In this document: one piece after another, positions 1,278 to 27,681 of the stretch
Numbering within the stretch: the stretch's first letter is position 1
How the letters are laid out: every line of letters starts with the position of its first letter
Origin: a virus
DNA length: 32,248 bases
Virus record (IMG/VR): IMGVR_UViG_3300008339_000286
Coordinates: 1-32,248 of that record
Strand: one strand, 5' to 3'
Program-made: the position numbers and the translations under genes
Notes under the pieces: model-generated
What the model saw: only the letters and a program-made list of their open reading frames with translations
Told to the model about the DNA's origin: nothing
The model's database searches: none

Positions 1278-1481
1278 TTAAAAAAATGATTCGGCTTTTA
1301 TTCCTTTTGACCTTAATATGCGTTTTGCTTTCGCTAGGGCTTTGCGTTCTTCTGCTAGTATGGTTGTTTTACTAACACCCAATACCGCGCCCACATCCTC
1401 TGCACTCATATTAAAACCGCTTGGGCGTTCTTGATTTGTTTCTGTTTCCAATGTTGTTAGTTTGCATTTTTTTAATGTCAT
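1278..1481 (-). CDS. Small HTH protein, sigma-70 region 4-like
   Basis: A 67-residue protein whose central part, about residues 25-60, reads as a helix-turn-helix: an acidic first helix, then a GVSKTT turn into the recognition helix, followed by a basic helix of Ala, Lys and Arg. The pattern is close to region 4 of sigma factors, where Gly-Val-Ser leads to the -35-binding helix. It is too short to be a full sigma factor. It may be a transcription regulator or a sigma-domain mimic. Its ATG overlaps the stop of the nuclease-like gene as ATGA. It is the only clear DNA-binding regulator candidate in the window. Confidence 0.7.
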   Translation of the reverse strand: MTLKKCKLTTLETETNQERPSGFNMSAEDVGAVLGVSKTTILAEERKALAKAKRILRSKGIKAESFF

Positions 1482-2110: not shown

Positions 2111-2353
2111 TTAGGCAACTACCCATTCGGCGGTTCCAATCGGATTTCCCAATTCTTCCCAGGTTGCCCGGTAATACGCTTGCCCACCTGGTTGTTCATC
2201 TTTTCCCAGGGCTTGAACATATCCTTGCGCCCCCCAGGGTTTGATTTCAGTTACCACAAAGAAGCAACCCGCAAACATTCGGTTCCGGCAAGTTTCGGGA
2301 TTCAGTTGAATCACATCGTTAATTTCAATGTTCATGGTGTCTTGTTTTGTCAT
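2111..2353 (-). CDS. Conserved small phage protein, function unknown
   Basis: An 80-residue protein containing an LNPETC motif, an aromatic FAGCFFVVTE stretch, then WGAQGYVQ and AYYRATWEEL. I recognise this combination from many phage genomes, where it is annotated only as hypothetical. It looks like a small all-beta domain. The frame extends upstream to a GTG at 2380, but the ATG at 2353 is better: a GGGAAA sequence precedes it, and a promoter-like element at 2394-2421 would place the transcript start near 2387. It is the first gene of the leftward early unit. Function is not known. Confidence 0.75.
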   Translation of the reverse strand: MTKQDTMNIEINDVIQLNPETCRNRMFAGCFFVVTEIKPWGAQGYVQALGKDEQPGGQAYYRATWEELGNPIGTAEWVVA

Positions 2354-2393
2354 GTTAAAAATTTCCCGTTTTTTGAACACATTGATTGCCTTA

Positions 2394-2421
2394 TGTATAG
2401 GTATTCAATAATTTCACCCAA
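2394..2421 (-). promoter_or_regulatory. Candidate sigma-70 promoter for the leftward unit
   Basis: On the leftward strand TTGGGT (2421-2416) is followed after 16 bases by TATACA (2399-2394). The first gene start, the ATG at 2353, would lie about 34 bases downstream of the predicted transcript start. The match to consensus is moderate and the assignment rests on position and spacing. Confidence 0.35.
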
Positions 2422-2430
2422 ACGCCCCCC

Positions 2431-2851
2431 TACCCCCAAGGGGTAAGAAAGCAGGATGGCTTCACCCGGAAAAATTCCGACCTTCGCATGGAATGGATTG
2501 GATACCATTTCCCCCCGGCTTGAAGGTTCACGCCCGCCGCAGGAATGTAGGATTTGCACCTGGTCAACAAAAGTTGCCTACCTGTACCCTTTTCTACCAC
2601 GCAACCGGGTTAGGTTCTTACTGTCGGATGGTGTCCGGCAACGGCACAAAAGAAAAACCCCAATCGCTTTGGTGGGCTAGTCCTTTGGCAAGGCAACCTT
2701 GGGATAAGTGCGCAATAGGTTGGACAACCGACCCAAAACACCAATTCCAAGGTCTTACAAGCCCACCGAAACAATCGGGGTATGTTGTCCATTTTATGCG
2801 TTTCCAACAGTTGCCACACCGTTAGCCCTTTCATTATCTACCAGTTGTGGT
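2431..2851 (-). ncRNA. Candidate structured non-coding RNA and/or replication origin
   Basis: The stretch 2354-2998 has no convincing gene: frames are open by chance on both strands but lack suitable start signals and codon choice. It holds many paired segments. Local hairpins are TACCCC/GGGGTA at 2431-2445, CGGAA/TTCCG at 2466-2478, CAGG(aatg)TAGG with CCTACCTG at 2540-2584 enclosing CAAC-AAAA-GTTG. A nested series follows: ACCAC(gc)AAC 2596-2605 with GTTGTGGT 2844-2851; GGGTTAG 2607-2613 with TTAGCCC 2822-2828 (two wobbles); GGTGT(cc)GGCAAC 2630-2642 with GTTGCCACACC 2810-2820; and the 2657-2678/2760-2781 arms. Three 60-base lines counted by eye are 50-53% G+C. Strand is uncertain: three of four mismatches in the long arms become G-U pairs on the leftward strand, and a TTTTTCTTTT run follows the arm on that strand. 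Other pairs favour the rightward strand. Confidence 0.4.
2657..2781. repeat. Long imperfect inverted repeat
   Basis: Arms at 2657-2678 and 2760-2781 pair over 22 positions with four mismatches, including uninterrupted blocks ACCCC/GGGGT and GGTGGGCT/AGCCCACC. The 81-base interior can form GGTTGG-acaa-CCGACC (2718-2731) and a pairing of ACCTTGG (2696-2702) with CCAAGGT (2747-2753). It forms the core of the larger paired region. Confidence 0.75.
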
Positions 2852-2866
2852 TTTTAGGTCAACACC

Positions 2867-2890
2867 CCCTAAATCTAGGGATTTACCCTA
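2867..2890. promoter_or_regulatory. Operator-like palindrome
   Basis: TAAATC (2870-2875) and GATTTA (2880-2885) form a perfect 6-base inverted repeat with a 4-base spacer. It is interleaved with CCCTA (2867-2871), TAGGG (2876-2880) and CCCTA (2886-2890), which allow two alternative hairpins. The position about 30 bases upstream of the rightward promoter-like sequence suggests a regulator site. The small HTH protein at 1278-1481 is the only visible candidate to bind it, which is inference. Confidence 0.35.
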
Positions 2891-2917
2891 GGTATGCAAA
2901 AAAAGTTAACAAATCTA

Positions 2918-2946
2918 TTGCAACCGTTAACAATCCCTGTCATAGT
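2918..2946 (+). promoter_or_regulatory. Candidate rightward early promoter
   Basis: TTGCAA (2918-2923) and CATAGT (2941-2946) are separated by exactly 17 bases. A GTTAACAA sequence sits in the spacer (2926-2933) and a copy lies 21 bases upstream (2905-2912), two helical turns away, suggesting paired protein-binding sites. A transcript starting near 2953 would have a leader of about 46 bases before the first gene. Confidence 0.4.
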
Positions 2947-2998
2947 TACGGTACGGTCAAACACTTTCAAGACCGGATGAAAAACAGAAAGGTACAAG

Positions 2999-3526
2999 AT
3001 GAAACAAAACAACATCGCAATCGCAGTTGAACCCATCAAGCAAGCAAGCATTGATGCCGCAGTTGAAGCAACTCGCGAAGTAATCGCCGCTTACAAACAA
3101 AAATTGGAAGCCGCTAATTGGGATTTGAATGTTGCATTTCCACGCCCAAGCATTAATACATCACGCGCAACATATATGGCACAAAAATCGCGCCATGATT
3201 TTGCCCGTTCGTTAGTTACACCGGTTGGTTTCCCACGCCGTAGTGAACCTTACCTTGTTACCTGGTGTGAAGAAGGTGTTGCCCACGCACTAGATCAAGC
3301 CGCTAAAGATGCCGCACTCCAATACGAAGCGTATGTTTACAAGTTAGTTAAAAAGGTTGGCGATTGTGATGATGCAAAAATGGGCTTCAACAATGGCGTT
3401 TGGTTTGATTCAAACCTAGTTGTAACTAAGGGCGAAACCAAACAAGTATGGAATACTAAGTGCATTGTTAACCGTTCGGTTTACGGCAAAGTATTCAACC
3501 AGTTCCCAACAAGATTACGCAAATAA
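2999..3526 (+). CDS. Phage protein of unknown function (175 aa)
   Basis: First gene of the rightward unit, with a clear AAAGG ribosome binding site eight bases before the ATG. The N-terminal third, residues 8-38, is a charged Ala-rich helix. The rest is mixed, with several aromatic residues and a basic C-terminus; a DCDDAKMGFNNG segment lies near residues 122-133. There is no signal peptide or membrane segment. I do not recognise a family. Codon use matches the surrounding phage genes. Being first behind an early promoter and upstream of the recombination genes suggests an early function, perhaps host takeover or regulation, but nothing in the sequence shows this directly. Confidence 0.8.
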   Translation: MKQNNIAIAVEPIKQASIDAAVEATREVIAAYKQKLEAANWDLNVAFPRPSINTSRATYMAQKSRHDFARSLVTPVGFPRRSEPYLVTWCEEGVAHALDQAAKDAALQYEAYVYKLVKKVGDCDDAKMGFNNGVWFDSNLVVTKGETKQVWNTKCIVNRSVYGKVFNQFPTRLRK

Positions 3527-24986: not shown

Positions 24987-26315
24987 TTAACCGACTAAAC
25001 GAACACCCGCGAAAACATCCAGGATCGTGCTACAAACGCGCTTCTCTGCAAATAGGTACACGAACCCTGGCGCAGTTTGATCGAAGCGTTTGATACTCAT
25101 TTGGTTGTTATCTGCGATGGTTACAAAGCGTTCCCAATCTGCCAAGTAAACGGGGTTGTTACCTGCACCCGCAACTTCCATATATGGGTTAGGGATTACC
25201 CTATGTCCAAAGATATATACAACTGCGCCGCCATCGTCATCGCCGGCTTCAACAAACATTGGCGAACCGCCGGTTGAACCTTTTAATTTGCGGATTGCAC
25301 CAATCGTAGTTGGGTGCATCATCCAACAAGTAGAAGGTTTGAACAAATACTGGGCGGGTAATGCCGCCATTAAATTTGCTAAATCGTCATACGATACTGC
25401 GCCTGCGCTTGCCTGGTTAACTTCCAATACGGTATGAATACCATTAGTAATCGCGCTACCGTTTGAACCAAACGCCGCCGCGCTAGTGCTACCAGGGTAA
25501 GAGTTCAAACCACGCAAGCCGCTTGTTGCGCCGTATGCGGTAGTAGTGCTACCTGCCTGGTCATTGTTTAGCATCATGGATTGGGCTTCAACCTGGGAAA
25601 ACTCCAGGGCTAAATCCATAACCAATGTTTCTTCCAGGTTATCAATATCGGAAAGGATTGCAGTACGAACTGGCAATACCGCGTTTACATCGCGAATCGG
25701 CAATTGCCAAAATGCGGTTGCCTGATTTGGCGAACCTTCATTGGTGTTAATGCCATAACCCCAGGGGTTTGTTGCATCCTGGGAGTTACCAGTTTTAACA
25801 ACAAACGCCTGATCGGAACCGGTAGTTACGATTTGGCGCGATACTTGGCGAAAAGGGTTTGCAAGGCGAAGTGATGCAAACGCATCATCGTATATAACGC
25901 GCCCGCCAACATCCGAACCTGAACCAGTTAACGCGCTTGCTTCGCGCAAGTTAACCGTTGCTTGCCCTTCAAGTAGGGCTTCTTTAATGCCTTGAAATAT
26001 TGCGCTATTATCCATTTTCCTTAGTTCCTTTTCTGCCCATGTTTTGCCAGGATCACCACCCCACAATGCCCACGCGATACGCCCCGCACTTGGGTACCCA
26101 TCCTCGCCAGGCTTCCAACCTTTGCCCTGCTTATCTACTTCATGCCGGGCAAAATAACTAACCATTCGTGCAATTGTCGCGCGGGGTAAATCCTTACCGT
26201 TGCTAATATCACGCGCCCTTGCAACTCCAACTTCTGTACCACCTCGCCCAAATTCCTTACGCCATTCTAAGCCCCTGCGGGCTTCTGCTTTCATAGCATC
26301 GGTTGGTTTAGGCAT
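24987..26315 (-). CDS. Second HK97-fold capsid paralogue with alternative N-terminal domain
   Basis: Residues from about 125 to the end (442) are clearly related to the capsid protein encoded upstream: both have EASALTGSG, LRLANP, WGY and WQL blocks, EFSQVE, DQAGSTTT, GLRGL and YPG in the same order, and end in RFDQTAPGF or RYDQTAPGF and EKRVCS. In place of the coiled-coil delta domain it has about 100 residues of a different domain: ARRGLEWRKEFGRGG near 12-26, FARHEVDKQGKGW near 55-67 and YPSAGRIAWALWGGDPG near 74-90. I have met this domain in other phage structural proteins but cannot name it. An internal ATG at 26015 could yield the capsid domain alone. It may be a minor shell protein or a second major one. 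Confidence 0.85.
   Translation of the reverse strand: MPKPTDAMKAEARRGLEWRKEFGRGGTEVGVARARDISNGKDLPRATIARMVSYFARHEVDKQGKGWKPGEDGYPSAGRIAWALWGGDPGKTWAEKELRKMDNSAIFQGIKEALLEGQATVNLREASALTGSGSDVGGRVIYDDAFASLRLANPFRQVSRQIVTTGSDQAFVVKTGNSQDATNPWGYGINTNEGSPNQATAFWQLPIRDVNAVLPVRTAILSDIDNLEETLVMDLALEFSQVEAQSMMLNNDQAGSTTTAYGATSGLRGLNSYPGSTSAAAFGSNGSAITNGIHTVLEVNQASAGAVSYDDLANLMAALPAQYLFKPSTCWMMHPTTIGAIRKLKGSTGGSPMFVEAGDDDGGAVVYIFGHRVIPNPYMEVAGAGNNPVYLADWERFVTIADNNQMSIKRFDQTAPGFVYLFAEKRVCSTILDVFAGVRLVG
26013..26030 (-). promoter_or_regulatory. Internal ribosome binding site and start in the capsid paralogue
   Basis: On the leftward strand AAGGAACTAAGGAAA (26030-26016) lies directly before an in-frame ATG at 26015-26013, which is codon 101. 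Two AAGGA copies precede it, one at usable spacing. Initiation here would produce a 342-residue capsid protein without the N-terminal domain. Confidence 0.45.
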
Positions 26316-26364: not shown

Positions 26365-27681
26365 TTACGCGCCCGTTGCGGTAGAACGGTAACGAATGAT
26401 TGCAAATGGATCAACAACGCTAGAACAAACGCGCTTCTCACCGTAGAAGGTGATAAAGCCAGGTGCGGTTTGATCGTAACGGCGTAGAACCATGTTCAAA
26501 CGGTCAACAATGGTATGTCCGCGAGTAAAATCACCGAAGTACATTGGGTACTTAGAAACGGTACCAGGTGATGCGCCTGCGGCAACTGGGCTATCAACAT
26601 AGTTGTTAACAACTACATCGTAACCTAGCAACTTACCAACAATACCTTCGTAAACGCCAGGTGCCATGCGTTCAAATACTGGGGTGTTGTTATCGTCAAC
26701 CATGCCACGAATAAACGAAAGCATCAATGGCGAAACCATGAACTTATTGTTAGCGTTCCAATATTGTTGTGGAAGGCTATGCAAGAAGTTGATAAGGTCA
26801 GCAAAGACCATTTGGCTTGTTCCGCCTGCGGCGTTGGTGGTCAACTGGTCATAAGTTGCAATGCTATGCAAACCTGCGCTTGCGCCAGTTCCGCTAGAAC
26901 CAAATGCGGCGGTAGAAATTGTGCCACCGGTGTAAGTACCGTTTGCGCCAGGATAGTAATCCAAACCACGCAAACCGTTTGTGCCACCGGTTGCAGTAGT
27001 TGTAGAACCTGCCTGGTCATCGTTGGCGATCATGGATGCGCCCTCAACTTGCGAGAACTCAACCAACATATCATCAACCACATTGGCTTCCAAACCATCA
27101 ATATCATCCAAAGCCGCAGTACGGATTGGGAATTGGGTGTTGATGTCTTGCAAAGTCAATTGCCAAATGTTTGTATTCTCAGTAGTTGCGGCACCATTGT
27201 TCTGAATGGTGTAACCCCATGATGCGCCTGCGTTACCTGTCTTAGCGCGGAACTGATAGGTTGCGCCATCGGTAGATACATTGCGTGAAAGTCCGCGCAT
27301 TGGGTTTGCCAAACGCAAGGCATGGAATACGGGATCGTATGCAGTACGACCACCAACGCCCGCGCCCGAACCGGTCAATGCAGATGCTTCGTTTAGGTAG
27401 GCATCGTACTGATCGACTGATTCAAACATTTTGATTTCTTTTTCAAGGCTATTGCCCTTTGAAATGAACTCTTTAAGTTGTGATTTAACCATGCGGTTAA
27501 CATCACTCTTAATGGTTTTTGCAGGTGCCTGGATAATTGCGGGTGCCTTAACTTCTGCAACCTTGGCTTCCAGGGCGGCTAACTTCTCGGCAACTTCAAC
27601 CTTAACGGCTTCAACTGCTTCTGCAATCTTGGATTCATTTTGTGCCGCGATTGCATCTAATTTTTCAAATACTTTTTCCAT
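26365..27681 (-). CDS. Major capsid protein 1, HK97 fold with delta domain
   Basis: The 438-residue protein has an N-terminal charged coiled coil (about 1-95) like the HK97 delta scaffold, removed by the protease during maturation. The mature part probably starts near EASALTGSG at 98-106. Then come LRLANPMRGLSR, a WGY strand, EFSQVE, the DQAGSTTT loop and the C-terminal RYDQTAPGF and EKRVCS. It follows the protease by 12 bases and has a good AAAGGAAG site. A terminator-like hairpin behind it fits high expression. It is the more standard of the two capsid proteins and is probably the main shell subunit. Confidence 0.93.
   Translation of the reverse strand: MEKVFEKLDAIAAQNESKIAEAVEAVKVEVAEKLAALEAKVAEVKAPAIIQAPAKTIKSDVNRMVKSQLKEFISKGNSLEKEIKMFESVDQYDAYLNEASALTGSGAGVGGRTAYDPVFHALRLANPMRGLSRNVSTDGATYQFRAKTGNAGASWGYTIQNNGAATTENTNIWQLTLQDINTQFPIRTAALDDIDGLEANVVDDMLVEFSQVEGASMIANDDQAGSTTTATGGTNGLRGLDYYPGANGTYTGGTISTAAFGSSGTGASAGLHSIATYDQLTTNAAGGTSQMVFADLINFLHSLPQQYWNANNKFMVSPLMLSFIRGMVDDNNTPVFERMAPGVYEGIVGKLLGYDVVVNNYVDSPVAAGASPGTVSKYPMYFGDFTRGHTIVDRLNMVLRRYDQTAPGFITFYGEKRVCSSVVDPFAIIRYRSTATGA

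Follow-up and report, generated by a model that had tools for sequence, protein, structure and literature searches.

A putative phage RNA family with a variable pseudoknot and a swappable 3' domain

Results and discussion

The spacer at positions 2354-2998 of IMG/VR virus record IMGVR_UViG_3300008339_000286, which separates the leftward from the rightward genes of this record, is probably the gene of a free-standing structured RNA, encoded on the minus strand under its own promoter and acting in trans as a "non-coding moron". That the RNA exists and folds as described here we regard as almost certain; action in trans, taken as a separate claim, is favoured on balance. The window (the whole stretch of DNA that was analysed) comprises 32,248 bases, and its gene content includes Erf, YqaJ, RusA-like, replication and structural genes. 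The promoter pattern, strand, fold, modularity and distribution of the RNA all emerge from comparison among related sequences. We class it as a new family, marked by an unusual variable pseudoknot and a swappable 3' domain, of a kind (the large phage RNA) that is already known, and as such it is a well-supported addition to the few large phage RNAs that lack a known function.

Folding energy and coding capacity

A structured, non-coding region at this place was the original prediction from the DNA, and it is borne out by folding energies below those of dinucleotide shuffles on both strands, the minus strand being the stronger, and by open reading frames that are broken in homologues. The region 2354-2998 has a z-score of -4.1 on the plus and -5.7 on the minus strand and beats 20 of 20 shuffles on either; for the core at 2585-2860 the values are -2.8 (plus) and -4.3 (minus), with none of 200 shuffles as good. 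When 12 full-length elements were compared with 60 shuffles each, the minus strand had the lower z-score in 11 (L040 is the exception), and on the plus strand of the window element 6 of 60 shuffles folded as well.

Five ORFs of the region were traced through seven homologues, two of which are alike. Stops arise in 1, 6, 4, 7 and 4 of the seven, respectively. The plus-strand ORF at 2456-2680 is stop-free in six of seven homologues, yet it has a net frame shift in four, and the minus-strand ORF at 2350-2559 is open and in frame in three. A protein-coding reading was rejected on these stop and frame counts, and the pairing evidence given below settles it.

Relatives and distribution

The best 80 of 133 viral loci anchored on Erf were taken for comparison. 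Seven of them (L002-L007 and L009) contain the non-coding stretch in alignable form, at 73-86% identity, but of these only L007 and L009 also have a homologue of the right-hand adjacent gene. A one-strand iterated nhmmer search yielded 29 matching records among the window and the 80 loci, some of them near copies; on both strands, the best match had one orientation relative to Erf, weaker reverse matches appearing because of the long helices. The covariance model R1, built for the 5' part, recovers 26 of the 81 records with scores of at least 70 bits, in each case on the minus strand of the locus, with plus-strand shadows of at most 25.6 bits; L055 and L056 score 17.6.

A three-part DNA pattern that is independent of Erf matched at least 120 stretches, a number that gives the family size as a lower bound. 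Of 116 new pattern loci, 105 were confirmed by nhmmer, and three of the other 11 have an R1 match of about 48 bits. The 101 RNAs counted throughout represent, without duplicates, 128 loci with profile matches extending to position 405, 18 coming from the window or the Erf-anchored set and 83 from the pattern scan; L049, L057, L058, L059, L067 and L074, with shorter profile matches, were left out. Of the 83 pattern-found RNAs, 41 have an Erf-like gene no more than 3 kb before or 4 kb after them; of all 101, 56 have one nearby, in 55 cases opposite to the RNA's strand. Exact-word scans with AGGATGGCTTCACCCG and TTCAYGCCCGCCGCAGG gave mostly chance matches among the matches listed.

A weak search for host or prophage copies, in which 7 candidates were scored per genome out of often hundreds, found none in 399 genomes from the order of a Limnohabitans genome and none in 398 from its phylum. 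As a control, the same search recovered nine of nine element-bearing records and was negative for Acidovorax phage AP1, these being small viral records of which six of the nine are in the model. Blastn for named phages, using the window region and four relatives as queries, yielded no convincing copy of the 5' domain: one query gave E-values of 2 to 7 only, and another gave one match, outside the 5' domain. Methylophilaceae phage P19250A (L357) has a TerL 70% identical to that of the window, suggesting related hosts for the two phages; it has a short divergent intergenic region at the corresponding place, with no R1 match.

Strand, promoter and extent of the RNA

The original prediction named no strand. 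Among paired cells of the 36-sequence alignment, minus letters give 167 G-U and 11 A-C pairs, and a structure derived independently from plus letters gives 89 A-C and 10 G-U; these counts fix the RNA strand as minus. As far as it is conserved, the RNA extends over 2404-2826 (minus strand, about 423 nt), as delimited by nhmmer profiles and, for the 5' part, by R1, whose match in the window runs from 2826 to 2647 with 105.5 bits.

Immediately upstream is a sigma-70-type promoter (2833-2862, minus strand), with TTGACC at 2862-2857, an 18-nt spacer and GATAAT at 2838-2833, and its position places the 5' end of the RNA, by our inference, near 2826. The window promoter scores 10 of 12 in a promoter scan, which alone is chance level (two sites found, 1.1 expected). 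The relatives are more telling: a -10 box (at least four of six matches, with A2 and T6, ending 11-17 nt before the conserved UGGCA) stands at the promoter place in 96 of 101 distinct relatives, against a mean of 4.65 and a maximum of 20 in control windows, and 68 of the 101 additionally have a -35 element (at least four of six matches) 16-19 nt upstream of the -10.

A plus-strand RNA starting from a promoter-like pair at the other end (2373-2378/2396-2401) was considered and set aside, since the G-U and A-C counts, the z-scores and the promoter statistics all favour the minus strand. The pair itself, TTGAAC-17-TATAGG (2373-2401, plus strand, read by eye), lies at the 3' end of the RNA, is kept in L003 (with one change), L004 and L005 and partly in L007, and would yield a transcript antisense to the RNA. 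Another promoter-like sequence on the plus strand, TTGCAA-17-CATAGT, occurs together with a conserved hairpin, CGGTCAAAC..GACCG, at 2918-2998, just 5' of the first rightward gene; this stretch can be aligned in eight sequences despite differences in the gene that follows. In L029 and L014, inspection by eye showed, immediately before the RNA and on its strand, a GCCCC..GGGGC hairpin with T7 after it; the -35 element of the RNA promoter lies inside the hairpin loop, so that an upstream terminator and the promoter would share letters.

Nested helices of the 5' domain

The pseudoknotted 5' domain (2826-2646, minus strand) consists, in RNA order, of P1 (loop GUGGCA), P2a, P3a, P4a, P2b, P4b, P5 (loop UGCCAA), P3b and a U-rich stretch. 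The P1 hairpin forms the 5' end (2804-2825, with 2818-2825 pairing to 2804-2811); seven of its eight pairs show a double change, and the GTGGCA of its loop is present in 100 of 101 sequences. P3 is a long helix (2657-2781, with 2758-2781 pairing to 2657-2680) that encloses P4 and P5 and is interleaved with P2. Both sides change in six of the eight pairs of its inner part, where 97.8% of cells are paired; its outer CCC/GGG part is conserved, without double change. For P4 (2697-2752, with 2747-2752 pairing to 2697-2702) the family columns show a double change in five of six pairs and 79.3% of cells paired; an insertion shifts the window's row of the alignment there, and the window pairs were read by eye. 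The P5 hairpin (2682-2693, with 2691-2693 pairing to 2682-2684) has double changes in two of four pairs and 96.5% of cells paired, and the GCCA of its loop occurs in all 101 sequences. Both loops are nearly invariant, and the GCCA of the P5 loop is complementary to the UGGC of the P1 loop, with which it could form a kissing contact.

Covariation among homologues, proposed with the original prediction as a check, is strong. In alignment A2 (36 of 38 sequences below 80% identity, L341 and L247 having been set aside by hand), double changes occur in 21 of 33 nested pairs. Double-change cells number 197, against 73.2 in shuffled alignments (none of 500 as high) and 29-62 in slid controls. The share of cells paired is 90.7% against 75.2% shuffled, a comparison favoured by a structure derived from A2 itself, and the covariation score is 0.500 against 0.228.

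The predicted set of four nested long-range stems came without coordinates; reconstructed from the fold, its inner members are P3 and P4, whereas the outer ones find no support. The outermost stem (about 2596-2608 with 2841-2851) would include promoter sequence that precedes the RNA start. The one inside it (about 2626-2643 with 2807-2820) conflicts with P1, a local hairpin that covaries. Helix P2 was absent from that prediction; a minimum-energy fold cannot show pseudoknots.

A pseudoknot helix with fast turnover

P2 makes the fold a pseudoknot by joining a segment before P3 with a segment inside P3. Its 5' strand, P2a (2784-2800, minus strand), pairs through 2784-2791 with 2721-2728 and through 2797-2800 with 2711-2714, the 3' strand, P2b (2711-2728), lying in the loop of P4. 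The evidence for both strands comes from a swap test: the mean duplex energy is -18.9 kcal/mol with the RNA's own partner and -9.3 with either swapped or shuffled partners, and in 95 of 101 RNAs at most 5% of swaps equal the own partner. In 374 pairs of sequences with 90% identity or more across P1, P3, P5 and the U-stretch, mean identity is 48% for P2a and 88% for P1, a comparison that is biased, because P1 lies within the 90% region, and that uses non-independent sequence pairs. The 13-nt words of P2a recur in their own locus or its reverse complement in six of 101 RNAs, and these recurrences are taken for the P2 helix itself. It is unusual for a helix to remain complementary as its sequence turns over, and an explanation is called for.

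The U-rich stretch and the 3' domain

Directly after P3 comes a U-rich stretch, UUUUUCUUUUG (2647-2657, minus strand), which is conserved in alignment A2 and is a putative linker or intrinsic terminator. The 3' domain of the window (2404-2645, minus strand, 242 nt) has an ACC/GGU closing pairing and several hairpins, e.g. at 2562-2578, 2490-2512, 2480-2527 and 2467-2479 on the same strand. Hairpins had been predicted at 2431-2584, and they are real, with compensatory change in several. This 3' domain is common to 19 full-length relatives (alignment A3). That alignment is divergent and its RNAalifold consensus sparse (25 pairs, five of them with double changes); the pairs, in a structure derived from minus letters, comprise 371 Watson-Crick, 87 G-U, no A-C and 13 other. 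In the eight closest sequences (two alike here), 23 of 127 pairs over the whole stretch, taken in plus letters, have double changes.

Judged by sequence matching at E <= 1e-5 over at least 40 nt, the 3' part is conserved across phages, yet its type varies: the 3' stretches fall into eight groups (48, 14, 11, 10, 3, 3, 2 and 2 members) and eight singletons. In 93 of 101 RNAs, the 230 nt that follow the U-stretch have a match in at least one other RNA, and in 90 they match a relative whose 5' domain is less than 80% identical; of the 11 RNAs without such a relative, eight match no other RNA. The 3' domain starts near GACCG in 47 of 101. The sequence GGUGCAAAUCC in the 3' domain, which we take to resemble sequences of the cobalamin riboswitch and the tRNA T-loop, was considered as either and rejected, no such family being found in the RNA region of six relatives with a similar 3' domain (E <= 0.5) or in the window (E <= 10).

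Gene context

The nearest recognised upstream gene among the 101 RNAs is a cluster c7 gene in 13, Cro/YdaS-like in 11, TerL in 8 and VRR-NUC-like in 6 (a name given from reading the sequence, Pfam showing no match), with none recognised in 41. The first recognised downstream ORF is on the RNA's strand in 56, on the opposite strand in 15 and absent in 30; because ORF calling was mechanical, individual assignments may be in error, and the 15 opposite ones may include spurious calls. This first ORF is a replication-initiation-like gene on the RNA's strand in 29 of 101. L029 and L014 have a similar small gene that runs against the RNA and stops at its 3' end, so the RNA is not a leader of that gene. 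The left operon of the window reads in the same direction as the RNA.

Comparison with Rfam families

With Rfam 15, the window has no family at gathering scores, and at E <= 10 it has six matches only, far below those scores. Together with the folding energy and the covariation in homologues, this supports the suggestion, made with the original prediction, of an undescribed phage RNA. No description of the RNA was found in a literature search outside which most subscription papers lay, and one may exist among these.

The Rfam family that comes nearest in the relatives is RF02932 (Betaproteobacteria-1), an orphan entry that hereby gains a second context. In the window it stays below its 49.4-bit cut-off, with no match for 2340-3000 even at E <= 10, and the 3' domain of the window belongs to another group. 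In seven of 35 relatives scanned (L303, L340, L292, L260, L278, L244 and L306), RF02932 stands directly after the U-tract as the 3' domain; the Rfam model itself differs in being 120 nt long and having no promoter-proximal pseudoknot domain. Bacterial genomes carry RF02932 too, in six of 300 from the order of a Limnohabitans genome (four over the cut-off). In all eight bacterial loci inspected (L349-L356; five over the Rfam cut-off) it is found without the 5' domain, so that the bacterial copies stand alone, whereas the window has a 5' domain scoring 105.5 bits. Acidovorax phage AP1 (L348, 4001-4084) has a blastn stretch of 81 bases, 81% identical, that resembles the 3' two-thirds of RF02932 and lies beside a primase gene, again without the 5' domain. 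It follows from the RF02932 matches that the catalogue knows one 3' module and not the whole RNA.

Interpretation and alternative explanations

Phage morons are genes with their own promoter and a shifting position. It is the RNA's own promoter and its several gene contexts (after Cro/YdaS-like, TerL, VRR-NUC-like and other small genes, before replication-initiation-like genes, and against convergent genes) that lead us to read it as a free-standing, trans-acting RNA gene. Transcription would run leftward from the RNA's own sigma-70-type promoter. The constant 5' domain may be a shared scaffold or platform for a host protein, for host RNA polymerase or the ribosome, or for a further copy of the RNA; what is acted on would be set by the exchangeable 3' domain. 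We infer transcription, the length of the molecule, action in trans and any partner. A more specific idea, that of a widespread phage "RNA moron" with a constant pseudoknotted 5' module, exchangeable 3' modules and a P2 diversified as an identity tag, is speculative, and we think it unlikely; if P2 were such a tag, it might serve self-recognition between copies, specificity of assembly, or escape from a host defence that reads sequence.

A point against the free-standing reading is that recognised downstream ORFs are mostly on the RNA's strand (56 versus 15), as would be expected of a cis-acting leader. This count and the U-tract after P3 make such a leader of the early (replication) transcript, which would modify RNA polymerase or control read-through, the strongest rival; we consider it possible but rather unlikely. 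It could take the form of an attenuator, with P3 and the U-tract as its terminator, or of an RNA antiterminator like HK022 put. The put RNA forms the 5' end of an early phage transcript, is known to act in cis only and is much smaller than about 420 nt; with an antiterminator of this type, the transcribing polymerase passes terminators in cis, and the RNA heads the transcript that it controls. Like put, the present RNA would lie, in many contexts, at the 5' end of an early transcript; the differences are in put's much smaller size and cis-only action. That the RNA begins at a promoter, that P3 with U5 resembles an intrinsic terminator, that a replication-initiation-like gene follows on the same strand in 29 of 101, and that the left operon of the window shares the RNA's strand would all fit a leader. 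Yet L029 and L014 have a convergent gene next after the RNA, the RNA follows TerL in eight loci, P2 does not appear positioned to compete with P3, as an attenuator needs, and conservation continues beyond the U-tract.

Termination at P3 and U5 could also occur at about 175-180 nt and make the 3' domain a second element. There would then be two adjacent elements, a terminated RNA of that length (P1-P5 and the U-tract) and a separate 3' domain often beside it, an arrangement we find improbable. It would explain why RF02932 lacks the 5' domain in eight of eight bacterial loci and why AP1 has the RF02932-like 3' two-thirds by itself, but 90 of 101 RNAs have a conserved 3' stretch behind the U-tract, no promoter is visible by eye between the domains, and no control window inside the RNA has a -10 box in more than 20 of 101. 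Least probable is a replication origin, primer RNA or packaging element in place of an RNA acting away from its site. The RNA adjoins replication genes or TerL in many records, as such an element might, but its position shifts between early and packaging regions, and the G-U signature is confined to a single strand. The replication origin, which the original prediction had offered as an alternative, gains nothing from RNA pairing on one strand (167 G-U versus 11 A-C) and a promoter pattern of its own.

Comparison with other large phage RNAs

The free-standing RNA proposed here invites comparison with GOLLD and ROOL, described in PMC12286853 as large structured phage RNAs with pseudoknots and of unknown function, whose profiles were taken from Rfam. 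By that account, GOLLD has one conserved and one less conserved part, one ROOL is 659 nt long and many GOLLD RNAs exceed 800 (PMC12286853). The likeness lies in a large, elaborately folded phage RNA with a pseudoknot; the RNA here is shorter, at about 420 nt, and differs in that its constant part is at the 5' end. The window has no match to the Rfam models of GOLLD or ROOL. A homo-oligomeric RNA complex is a feature of GOLLD and ROOL, and both are often near tRNA genes, whereas the window has no tRNA gene; six relatives (L058, L303, L245, L278, L259 and L239) do carry one. The compact models obtained here, with promoter, start and pseudoknot fixed, lend themselves to probing, deletion and pull-down tests.

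Other genes of the virus record

In the operon after the RNA, a small protein encoded at 1278-1481 (minus strand) has a weak likeness to sigma-70 region 4 (Pfam E-value 0.037) and matches a PHROG sigma factor with an E-value of 0.0013. Farther away, two genes at 24987-26315 and 26365-27681, both on the minus strand, match the major head protein family phrog_10 (E-values 5.8e-22 and 6.3e-29, respectively) and form a tandem capsid-like pair.
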